Positions 5,865 through 56,372 of a stretch of 64,000 nt of DNA are shown here, in pieces. How positions within the stretch are numbered: position 1 is the first letter of the stretch; each line of letters opens with the position of its first letter. Location of the stretch: contig JBDKTA010000043.1 in assembly GCA_039680605.1 (NCBI GenBank), positions 1 through 64,000 on the forward strand, given 5' to 3'. The translations under genes and the position numbers were made by a program. This DNA is from Planctomycetaceae bacterium (GTDB lineage Bacteria > Planctomycetota > Phycisphaerae > SM23-33). The notes beneath the pieces are model-generated. The model did no database searches, was not told where the DNA came from, and was given only the letters and a program-made list of their open reading frames with translations.

Positions 5865-5879
5865 ACGTTGTTCTGCGTC

Positions 5880-6036
5880 CCATAGGGACGCCGGGGATAT
5901 AGCCGGGGGCGCAGCCCCCGGAACGGTGGAATATACCGGTTCCGCCCCGAAGGGGCGGGAGGAGTTCCGGGCACACGATAACCTCGTCGCCCCGTCGGGG
6001 CCCCCGGCTATGCTCCCAGAGCCTCTTCGAGGCTCA
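5880..6036. repeat. Compound palindromic intergenic element
   Basis: This gap between the PHP gene and truB (convergent) is a chain of short perfect inverted repeats: CCGGGGGCGCAGCCCCCGG, CCGCCCCGAAGGGGCGG, GCCCCGTCGGGGC and GAGCCTCTTCGAGGCTC. Folded as RNA it would give several consecutive GC hairpins. It may end transcription from both sides, but no T-tract follows. Confidence 0.65.
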
Positions 6037-6044
6037 GAAGAACG

Positions 6045-7004
6045 TCACGTGCTTACAAACACCTTGCGCGGTTTGAGCAGGCGGTCCGGCGTTGGCTCGG
6101 ACAGCGCGAGAAGGCCGCCGTCCGGTGCGAGCAGGACCACCTCTTTCGCTGTCGTGAATTGATTGTCCGCAAGGCGCAGCGGCTGGCCCATATTGATGCG
6201 CTTCACTTGCTCATCATCGAGCGTCAGCTTCGGCAAGTGCTCGACGGCCGCCAGCGGGGAGATCAAGTCGCCAGGCAGTTCCACTGCGTCGACGCTCTTG
6301 GCGTTTTCCAGGCGGAACTCGCCCACGGCGGTTCGGGTCAGCGCGGAGCAGTAACCTCCCACACCCAGGGCGGCGCCGATGTCGCGCGCCAGCGAGCGGA
6401 TGTACGTGCCCGCCTGGCAGCGCACGTCGATCTCCAGGTGCGGCCAGTCGTAGCTCAGCATCGTCATCTCGTACACGTGTACGCTGCGGGCCTTGAGGTC
6501 GAAACTCTTACCCGCGCGAGCGAGCTTGTACGCCCGCTGGCCATCCACGTGGACGGCAGAATGCGCCGGCGGCACCTGGGAGATCGTCCCGGTGAATTGC
6601 CGCAGCGCCGCGCGCACGGCGGATTCATCCGGCGTAGCATGGGCGTCTCGCCCATGAGTCGCAGGGGCATCTTGCCCCTGCCTTAGATCTGATTCCACGG
6701 GCGAGACGCCCGTGGGACTCACAGGCAAGATGCCCGTGCTACGGGTGATGGGCCCTTCGGGGTCGTCGGTGGCGCTGACGGCCCCGAGGGTGACTTGCGC
6801 GCGGTAGCACTTGACGGCCGCCTGCACGTAGTCGGCCAGTCGCGTGGCGTGTCCGACGCAGAGCACCAGCACGCCGTTGGCGAAGGGGTCGAGCGTACCG
6901 GCGTGGCCGATCTTGACGCCGCGCCCCAGGCGGCGGCGCGCGGCGGCCACGATATCGTGGCTGGTCGGCCCGGAGGGCTTATGGATGTTGAGGAATCCGA
7001 ACAT
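6045..7004 (-). CDS. truB: tRNA pseudouridine(55) synthase with in-frame repeat insertion
   Basis: TruB converts U55 of tRNA T-loops to pseudouridine. The 319-residue protein begins FGFLNIHKPSGPTSHD and has the catalytic motif GHAGTLDPFANGV with Asp39. QAGTYIRSLARDIG is the conserved KGTYIRSL-type motif, and a PUA-like tail follows. Residues 88-125 (TGILPVSPTGVSPV through HGRDAHATP) are not TruB sequence. They are the translation of a 109-bp dispersed element that also occurs at 38975-39083. The insert falls after DDPEGPITR and before DESAVRAALRQFTG, a surface-loop position in known structures, so the enzyme may still work. All core motifs on both sides are intact and in one frame. Confidence 0.93.
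   Translation of the reverse strand: MFGFLNIHKPSGPTSHDIVAAARRRLGRGVKIGHAGTLDPFANGVLVLCVGHATRLADYVQAAVKCYRAQVTLGAVSATDDPEGPITRSTGILPVSPTGVSPVESDLRQGQDAPATHGRDAHATPDESAVRAALRQFTGTISQVPPAHSAVHVDGQRAYKLARAGKSFDLKARSVHVYEMTMLSYDWPHLEIDVRCQAGTYIRSLARDIGAALGVGGYCSALTRTAVGEFRLENAKSVDAVELPGDLISPLAAVEHLPKLTLDDEQVKRINMGQPLRLADNQFTTAKEVVLLAPDGGLLALSEPTPDRLLKPRKVFVST
6634..6742. repeat. 109-bp quadruple-palindrome element inside truB
   Basis: The element has four blocks: GGGCGTCTCGCCC, GGGCATCTTGCCC, GGGCGAGACGCCC and GGGCAAGATGCCC (the first two slightly varied). It is bounded by GTAGCA and TGCTAC. Blocks 1 and 3 are reverse complements, as are blocks 2 and 4. Each block is also a small GGGC/GCCC hairpin. 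The same layout and length recur at 38975-39083. Confidence 0.93.
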
Positions 7005-12091: not shown

Positions 12092-12197
12092 GTTAGCGGT
12101 CGAGCCCGCTCGACGCGGTTTCTTCTTTGACCCCGAATCAGGGAAACAACCCCGTCGAGCAAGTCGAAGATCCGCCGTGGCGGGCTCGACCGCTAAC
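12092..12197. repeat. Dispersed repeat bounded by GTTAGCGG/CCGCTAAC (copy 1)
   Basis: A 106-bp inverted repeat starts GTTAGCGGTCGAGCCCGC and ends GCGGGCTCGACCGCTAAC. Its right half, reverse-complemented, nearly matches the left half of the copy at 23610-23700, including GATCTTCGACTTGCTCGACG. It separates DUF190 from top6B. Confidence 0.88.
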
Positions 12198-12205
12198 ATG
12201 TTCAT

Positions 12206-23539: not shown

Positions 23540-23609
23540 CGCCTCTCTCCAGAATATTACCGCCGACATCATACCGATTTGCACCCCGAATTCACGCGTT
23601 TCTTGGATC

Positions 23610-23700
23610 TTAGCGGTCCAGCCCGCCACGGGGGATCTTCGACTTGCTCGACGCGGTTTTCCGGTTCGCGAGAACGCGCGGAGCAAGCTGCGCCGCTAAC
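23610..23700. repeat. Dispersed repeat bounded by TTAGCGG/CCGCTAAC (copy 2)
   Basis: This copy starts TTAGCGGTCCAGCCCGCCAC and ends GCGCCGCTAAC. The stretch GGATCTTCGACTTGCTCGAC followed by GCGGTTT matches copy 1 at 12092-12197 on the opposite strand. Confidence 0.88.
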
Positions 23701-38341: not shown

Positions 38342-38503
38342 GATTCACCGCGGAGATCGCGGAGGTCGCAAAGAAGGATTAAAGGTCGGGAGGATGAATG
38401 GATGACTGGATGGGTGGATGACTAAACTGTCGAAACAACCTGATCTGCTTCTTTTATACTTCTGTCTTCCTCTGCGTTCTCCGCGATCTCTGCGGTGAAA
38501 TCC
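38341..38503. repeat. Inverted pair, CACCGCAGAG family (copy 8)
   Basis: ATTCACCGCGGAGATCGCGG followed by AGGTCGCAAAG faces CTCTGCGTTCTCCGCGATCT followed by CTGCGGTGAAAT about 90 bases away. Between them is a GGATGAATGGATGACTGGAT simple-sequence stretch. The right arm ends two bases before the next start codon. Confidence 0.85.
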
Positions 38504-38504
38504 C

Positions 38505-38978
38505 ATGCCGTTCCTGATCGACGCGAACAATCTGATGCACGCCCTGGCTTCGGCCGGAGTGCTGGTCGGGCGCGAGGGGCTGGCGAAGCTTCTGGCGCCG
38601 CTGGTGCTGAAGGACCGCGTGCATGTGGTGTTTGACGGCGCGCGGCCGCCGCTGCACGTGGCCCAGCAGATCGACGCTTGCGGCGTGCAGTCGACCTTCT
38701 GCCCGGCCGGACCGGCCGACGCGATGATCATCAAGGCCATCGCGGCCGACAGCGCCCCGCGCCGCCTTACGGTCGTCAGCAGCGACCACGAGATTCGCGC
38801 CGCCGCCCATCACCGTCGGTGCATCAGCGTCACCAGCGAAGCGTTTGCCGCCACGCTGGCGCATTCGCGCACGCCCGCGGCGGGGCAAGAGGACGAGCCG
38901 CAAGAGAAGACCAAAGGCTTAACCGAATCCCAGACTCGGGCGTGGCTCAAGGAGTTCGGGTTCGACGATGACGATTAG
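38505..38978 (+). CDS. NYN-domain nuclease-like protein (YacP type)
   Basis: This is a 157-residue protein with the NYN/PIN-like pattern: FLIDANNLMHAL, VHVVFDGARPP, GPADAMIIKAIAAD and TVVSSDHEIRAAA. The conserved Asp residues are present. YacP/Rae1 relatives cleave mRNA at the ribosome. The gene has no ribosome-binding site; a repeat ends just before its ATG. Its stop codon TAG (38976-38978) lies in the end of the 109-bp element. Confidence 0.82.
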   Translation: MPFLIDANNLMHALASAGVLVGREGLAKLLAPLVLKDRVHVVFDGARPPLHVAQQIDACGVQSTFCPAGPADAMIIKAIAADSAPRRLTVVSSDHEIRAAAHHRRCISVTSEAFAATLAHSRTPAAGQEDEPQEKTKGLTESQTRAWLKEFGFDDDD

Positions 38979-39083
38979 CACGGGCGTCTCGCCCGTGAGT
39001 CCCACGGGCATCTTGCCTGTGGCGAAGATCATCCTGCACGGGCGGGACGCCCGTGCGACTCATGGGCAAGATGCCCATGCTAC
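38975..39083. repeat. 109-bp quadruple-palindrome element between convergent genes
   Basis: The block order is the same as in truB: GGGCGTCTCGCCC, GGGCATCTTGCCT, GGGCGGGACGCCC, GGGCAAGATGCCC. The length is also 109 bases when aligned end to end. The left end TTAGCA supplies the TAG stop of the NYN gene. The right end TGCTAC supplies, on the other strand, the TAG stop of the GH28 gene. Confidence 0.94.
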
Positions 39084-56272: not shown

Positions 56273-56281
56273 GGCGAAGAT

Positions 56282-56352
56282 GTTAGCGGCGGGGCTTGCC
56301 CCGCGCGTCTTTCACCCTCTGATTAACGCGCGGGGCAAGCCCCGCCGCTAAC
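56282..56352. repeat. Dispersed repeat bounded by GTTAGCGG/CCGCTAAC (copy 3)
   Basis: GTTAGCGGCGGGGCTTGCCC followed by CGCGCG faces CGCGCGGGGCAAGCCCCGCC followed by GCTAAC. The ends match the copies at 12092 and 23610 but the interior is different. Confidence 0.85.
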
Positions 56353-56372
56353 GTCCCAATTCCGCTTCGCGG

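Follow-up and report, generated by a model that had tools for sequence, protein, structure and literature searches.

A GTAG-type REP read in frame within a planctomycete truB gene, and RAYT transposases lodged in housekeeping enzymes

The truB gene of Planctomycetaceae bacterium (assembly GCA_039680605.1) is interrupted by a 109-bp palindromic repeat through which its reading frame passes without a stop. Judged by its sequence features, the insert is a REP of the GTAG REP/RAYT class and not a Rickettsia palindromic element (RPE), and we consider it quite likely that it is a non-autonomous REP, placed by a RAYT in a loop of TruB, with a reading frame that already existed in its family. A RAYT transposase is found in frame inside EtfB of the same genome, and others inside valyl-tRNA synthetase (ValS) and further enzymes of related bacteria. 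The window referred to throughout is the whole stretch analysed, positions 1 to 64,000 (64,000 nucleotides) of contig JBDKTA010000043.1.

The truB gene and its insert

The gene and the parts of the element are as follows, with the basis of each in brackets.

6045-7004, minus strand: truB, tRNA pseudouridine(55) synthase, 319 aa, with an in-frame interruption (TIGR00431, E 3.4e-65; Pfam TruB_N in two stretches)
6634-6742, no strand: REP element, tandem REP units paired head to head (inverted), each outer end carrying GTAG (sequence, repeat searches)
6634-6637, plus strand: GTAG foot of the left REP (sequence)
6638-6656, plus strand: outer left hairpin CATGGGCGTCTCGCCCATG (sequence)
6661-6681, plus strand: inner left hairpin GCAGGGGCATCTTGCCCCTGC (sequence)
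6682-6694, no strand: central spacer of 13 nt, at the place of the RAYT gene in embedded REPtrons (comparison with embedded REPtrons)
6695-6715, minus strand: inner right hairpin CCACGGGCGAGACGCCCGTGG (sequence)
6720-6738, minus strand: outer right hairpin CACAGGCAAGATGCCCGTG (sequence)
6739-6742, minus strand: GTAG foot of the right REP, CTAC on the plus strand (sequence)

The minus-strand frame from 7004 to 6045 is stop-free across 6634-6742, and TIGR00431 and TruB_N each match both flanks and break at the insert. The REP encodes about residues 88-124 of the protein (~37 residues, TGILPV...HGRDAHATP), bounded by GPIT and PDESAV. A search of the genome found no second TruB. We aligned 29 relatives, alignable on both sides of the insert and 42-58% identical, so that none is an empty-site close relative, a point that counts against the favoured explanation. 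All 29 are without the insert and have a short variable linker at that place, which puts the REP in a hypervariable linker of the enzyme, at about residues 93-101 of the solved TruB 1sgv. An earlier note, made from the DNA alone, had given the coordinates of the palindrome exactly, had read truB straight through it with ordinary TruB on both sides, and had expected some relatives to be without it; all of this is borne out.

The AlphaFold model of the protein has a mean pLDDT of 90.8, with the insert mostly below 60, and superimposes on E. coli TruB 1k8w with Z 31.2 and an rmsd of 1.7 over 284 residues. GHAGTLDP, the TruB motif with the catalytic Asp, is intact. From the normal fold in the model and this motif we infer that TruB is probably folded and active, carrying a floppy loop.

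The element reads GTAG-CATGGGCGTCTCGCCCATG-AGTC-GCAGGGGCATCTTGCCCCTGC-spacer-CCACGGGCGAGACGCCCGTGG-GACT-CACAGGCAAGATGCCCGTG-CTAC, with four hairpins, two in each orientation. It is strongly self-complementary, at about -78 kcal/mol when folded as RNA, and the core of the inner left hairpin lies 24 nt from the outer core, 24 being the commonest spacing in the genome sample. Its length of 109 bp is not a multiple of 3, which also counts against the favoured explanation; the true unit or the target change would therefore differ from 109 bp.

A dispersed repeat family of the GTAG class

Over both strands of the 5.2-Mb genome, GTAGNNNGGGCNTCTYGCC is present as 141 exact units (71 + 70) and, at up to one mismatch, as 399 (205 + 194) versus 3 + 0 for a reversed control pattern, giving about 400 REP units; with the element as blastn query there are 82 matches. 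The dispersed nature claimed for it in the earlier note is thereby confirmed. Among the sampled loci, a non-random set made up of the best matches and the first-listed contigs, 166 units have the GTAG tag and 88 have GTGG, and there are 38 head-to-head elements. A search of 60 genomes, counting this one, found the exact unit in 19, some of which hold dozens of copies. One further family member lies in the window.

38976-39083, no strand: second member of the family, apparently intergenic (repeat searches)

The TAG foot of this copy appears to serve as the stop codon of the ORF directly upstream, which ends in ...FDDDD.

A GTAG/GTGG hairpin foot and head-to-head dimers are marks of REPs, which are thought to be mobilised by RAYTs (PMC3733652, PMC6006769 and PMC8266576). 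The family described here has GTAG at both hairpin feet, a high dispersed copy number, inverted dimers and a RAYT gene flanked by the repeat (a REPtron, at locus L010/L134). The earlier note had compared the element with RPEs while calling its sequence different. The difference stands as to the tag, which is CGTC in RPE-4/6 against GTAG/GTGG here; the in-frame palindromic insert in a housekeeping gene also stands, and the interpretation needs amending in that it overlooked the described GTAG REP/RAYT class.

In-frame copies within other genes, which the same note had proposed to count, were found in the sampled loci. REP inserts split the Pfam profiles of RsmA/KsgA and of a Ser/Thr kinase (locus L019, 704-827), the latter in its activation loop, where FGLAKLVS precedes and HVMGTPR follows the insert. 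A sulfatase has its Pfam match in two stretches around such an insert, and an HI0933-like flavoprotein and a DsbH-like protein are further Pfam-supported genes with in-frame REPs; other bearers in these loci are less sure. Open frames across REPs that have no Pfam support, which are many in this GC-rich DNA, were left out of the gene counts. In a relative (G038), a MiaB-type enzyme bears SSMGILPMSPTGVPPVEEEENQGQDAPGTHGRDARATV. The copies in TruB, RsmA, the kinase, the DsbH-like protein and the MiaB-type enzyme have one frame in common, [TM]G[IV][LS]P[VML] ... G[RQ]DA.AT.

RAYT transposases inside housekeeping enzymes

The genome has 15 matches to Y1_Tnp, and among the ten whose surroundings were read, only one is flanked by these REPs: that inside etfB. 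There, a single frame of 545 residues encodes, in order, EtfB, REP peptides, the RAYT, HGRDAHAT peptides and EtfB again. The ETF profile reaches position 88 before the insert and restarts at 87 after it, and therefore nothing of EtfB seems lost. A second pair of ETF genes lies on another contig. The units on both sides of this RAYT are tagged GTGG, versus GTAG on the truB element, which again counts against the favoured explanation.

In relatives searched with the EtfB RAYT, the open frames that carry the transposase are mostly 900-1350 residues long. Eight genomes (G002, G007, G015, G020, G022, G027, G030 and G038) have a RAYT at one site inside ValS, between the YPL and VATTRPETM motifs, where it separates the CP1 editing domain from the N-terminal catalytic part, and G006 has one at a different ValS site near the C-terminus. 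All of these but G022, whose gene is divided between two contigs, have no ValS over the family cut-off other than the RAYT-bearing one. The ValS of the window's own genome has the empty site RYPLVDGGKVETLTVATTRPETM. The embedded RAYTs lack a stop behind them and a conserved ATG ahead, where GTG and TTG are seen. Hairpin pairs of the truB type (GGGCATCTTGCCC, GGGCGTCTCGCCC), usually 24 nt apart, flank them on both sides, the two flanks sharing exact inverted repeats that reach 28 nt, and these REPs read in the TruB frame as TG[IV][LS]PV ... GRDAHAT. The ValS of G002 has, besides its RAYT, a further in-frame REP insert (VGILPACPEGVSP...).

The RAYTs match E. coli TnpAREP 4er8. The HUH motif and MPNH[VI]H occur in 10 of 10 sequences, each of which keeps at least one Tyr at the Tyr pair, and WQ and Y..xNP in part of them; by these motifs, rather than by the profiles of the authors of the classification, we provisionally assign them to subclass 2.4, or group 4. 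Their median pN/pS is 0.37, with synonymous sites near saturation. The REP was found in 10 of 10 genomes with this RAYT clade versus 9 of 50 others (uncorrected for relatedness); several REP-bearing genomes have no detected RAYT of the clade, a further point counted against the favoured explanation.

A survey of the phylum (392 genomes, 58 with a RAYT match) added in-frame RAYTs in AlaRS (two genomes, one common site), PurH, an FAD/FMN oxidoreductase, a DinG-like helicase and Eco57I-type methylases; for AlaRS, PurH and the oxidoreductase, Pfam recognises host domains on either side of the RAYT. Many other RAYTs in the survey have ordinary genes, 190-280 aa long. In TruB and 15 embedded-RAYT frames, Pfam revealed no Hint/splicing (intein) domain. 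In the open-licence PMC literature we found no earlier report of RAYTs in frame inside essential enzymes, tRNA synthetases among them. In one surveyed genome (G436), the repeat bordering in-frame RAYTs of methylase-type genes is a different one, read as QASSL...QDAC[DA]T, and turns up again at other places in those proteins.

Identities of RAYT and ValS are not correlated between genomes, and the same-genus pair G022 and G030 has ValS 88.5% but RAYT only 60.9% identical, with an AU p of 0.026 against RAYT sisterhood. Simple vertical inheritance of the ValS RAYT is thus unsupported, though fast RAYT evolution might explain the difference, and the data suggest, without proving, repeated occupation or replacement at one ValS site. 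A poor AlphaFold model of the ValS-RAYT region (pLDDT 54.8, six-row alignment) was set aside.

The reading frame and the origin of the truB insert

Among 30 head-to-head elements of <=165 bp read on both strands, the TG[IV][LS]PV frame is open in 50 of 60 reads versus 28 expected from shuffles, and the remaining two frames, with 19 and 9 stop-free reads of 60, fall under expectation; of 154 spacings between same-strand neighbours, 132 are divisible by 3 (24: 88, 33: 33, 30: 7), both sets of figures resting on related copies rather than independent events. The lack of stops in this frame characterises the repeat family as a whole and is not peculiar to the truB copy. When that copy alone is dinucleotide-shuffled, the TruB frame is open 34% of the time. 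The suggestion in the earlier note that avoidance of stops may be selected thus holds as to the open frame; selection in truB itself is unsupported, since the bias is family-wide and a shuffle so often stays open.

A rival account, to which we give a tentative but real chance, has the frame open by accident in GC-rich REP hairpins that land anywhere, survivor bias alone keeping the in-frame, loop-borne copies in essential genes and selection playing no part in the frame of the repeat. It would fit the shuffles of the truB copy, the majority of sampled REP-spanning open frames that have no Pfam support, and the other frames used by some gene-embedded copies, such as those in a sulfatase, FliO and DUF2961. 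It sits poorly with the excess of one frame over the others, with spacings that so regularly follow the codon, and with RAYTs that, lacking a stop, continue into that frame in many genomes.

The explanation that we prefer is that the truB insert is a non-autonomous element of two tandem GTAG REP hairpins facing two inverse ones, the layout that flanks a RAYT. A RAYT of TnpAREP subclass 2.4, probably the etfB one or its ancestor, would have delivered it to a variable loop on the TruB surface. The open frame would predate this insertion and have been present in the family, and TruB would tolerate the insert owing to a frame without stops in the element and a permissive loop, gaining a disordered loop of ~37 residues and probably still working. 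With two hairpin pairs 24 nt apart and a 13-nt spacer where the RAYT stands elsewhere, the element looks like a RAYT-bearing one minus its transposase, i.e. a deletion derivative. The cognate transposase appears to reside in housekeeping genes, EtfB here and ValS, AlaRS, PurH and DNA methylases elsewhere, and with transposase and REPs in the same frame in such genes, readable repeats would therefore persist. Extended further, to a scheme for which we see an even chance, REP transposases without their own start or stop would persist as internal domains of essential enzymes and reoccupy one ValS site in a homing-like manner, while the REPs turned codon-periodic and deletion derivatives such as the truB insert scattered without breaking genes.

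That the element regulates truB as an RNA or DNA structure, an mRNA hairpin or a protein-binding site, with translation incidental, strikes us as unlikely: the hairpin is very stable, and REPs in other settings are bound by gyrase and believed to influence mRNA (PMC3733652), but this copy lies in frame in the middle of the gene, not at its end. Still less probable is an adaptive insert, with the 37 residues conferring on TruB some new ability, for instance to bind RNA or a partner. REPs do recur in the pseudouridine synthase genes of several bacteria, according to PMC3733652, but the insert is predicted to be disordered, is present in 1 genome among 30 TruBs, and has similar peptides in unrelated proteins. 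An assembly artefact is scarcely credible, even for a multi-contig assembly, with the element inside a 154-kb contig, the frame continuous on both sides and the same kind of insert in many independent genomes.

Relation to known systems

The truB copy joins a phenomenon already described, REPs in frame inside genes, truB included: the available part of Di Nocera et al. (2013; PMC3733652) reports in-frame REPs in truB of S. maltophilia, E. litoralis and S. alaskensis and lists 24 families of a GTAG REP superfamily. Our family resembles that superfamily, as presented there, in its GTAG-tagged hairpins, head-to-head dimers, high copy number, PVC hosts, in-frame genic copies and TAG foot used as a stop codon; it differs in its tandem-plus-inverted layout and codon-multiple spacing, the comparison being one of general features. 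A planctomycete truB is not mentioned in that part of the paper.

With RAYT group 4, equivalent to TnpAREP subclass 2.4 (Quentin et al. 2018; PMC6006769), the present transposases have in common the NH[VI]H motif, the Tyr region, GT[AG]G 'double foot' REPs and REP insertion without a break of frame. Unlike that group as described, the whole RAYT is here internal and in frame, in ValS, AlaRS, EtfB, PurH and methylases; that study discarded 'unexpectedly long proteins'. RPE-1 and RPE-4/6 are likewise in-frame palindromes in housekeeping genes, including R. conorii truB, but RPE-4/6 are grouped with CGTC-tagged repeats, a class lacking a dedicated transposase (PMC3733652). The embedded RAYTs recall inteins with homing endonucleases as DNA-processing enzymes in frame in an essential gene and recurrent at one site; unlike inteins they show no sign of protein splicing.

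In the part of PMC3733652 available, in-frame REPs in housekeeping genes were listed and the survival of the frame left unexplained. The frame common to the truB insert and the in-frame REPtrons offers an explanation: repeat and transposase both seem adapted to read-through. Lodged in the sole valyl-tRNA synthetase, a transposase domain would amount to a selfish element hard to delete, intein-like though apparently without splicing, and the embedded RAYTs are a direct route to testing how RAYTs are maintained and spread.

Other repeats in the window

An Rfam scan of the window gave one tRNA and nothing else. Directly downstream of truB, at 5870-6040, lies a GC-rich palindrome cluster distinct from the REP. 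A palindrome of another family (GGCGGGGCTTGCCCCGC) at 56279-56355 forms a 30-bp near-perfect inverted repeat with a 17-nt loop. Two longer-range pairs were also noted: a 52-nt inverted pair, 92% complementary, at 12148-12199 and 23607-23658 with 11 kb between, and a 42-nt direct repeat (CCTCTGCG..CTCCGCGATCTCTGCGGTGAAA), 86% identical, at 171-212 and 38469-38510.
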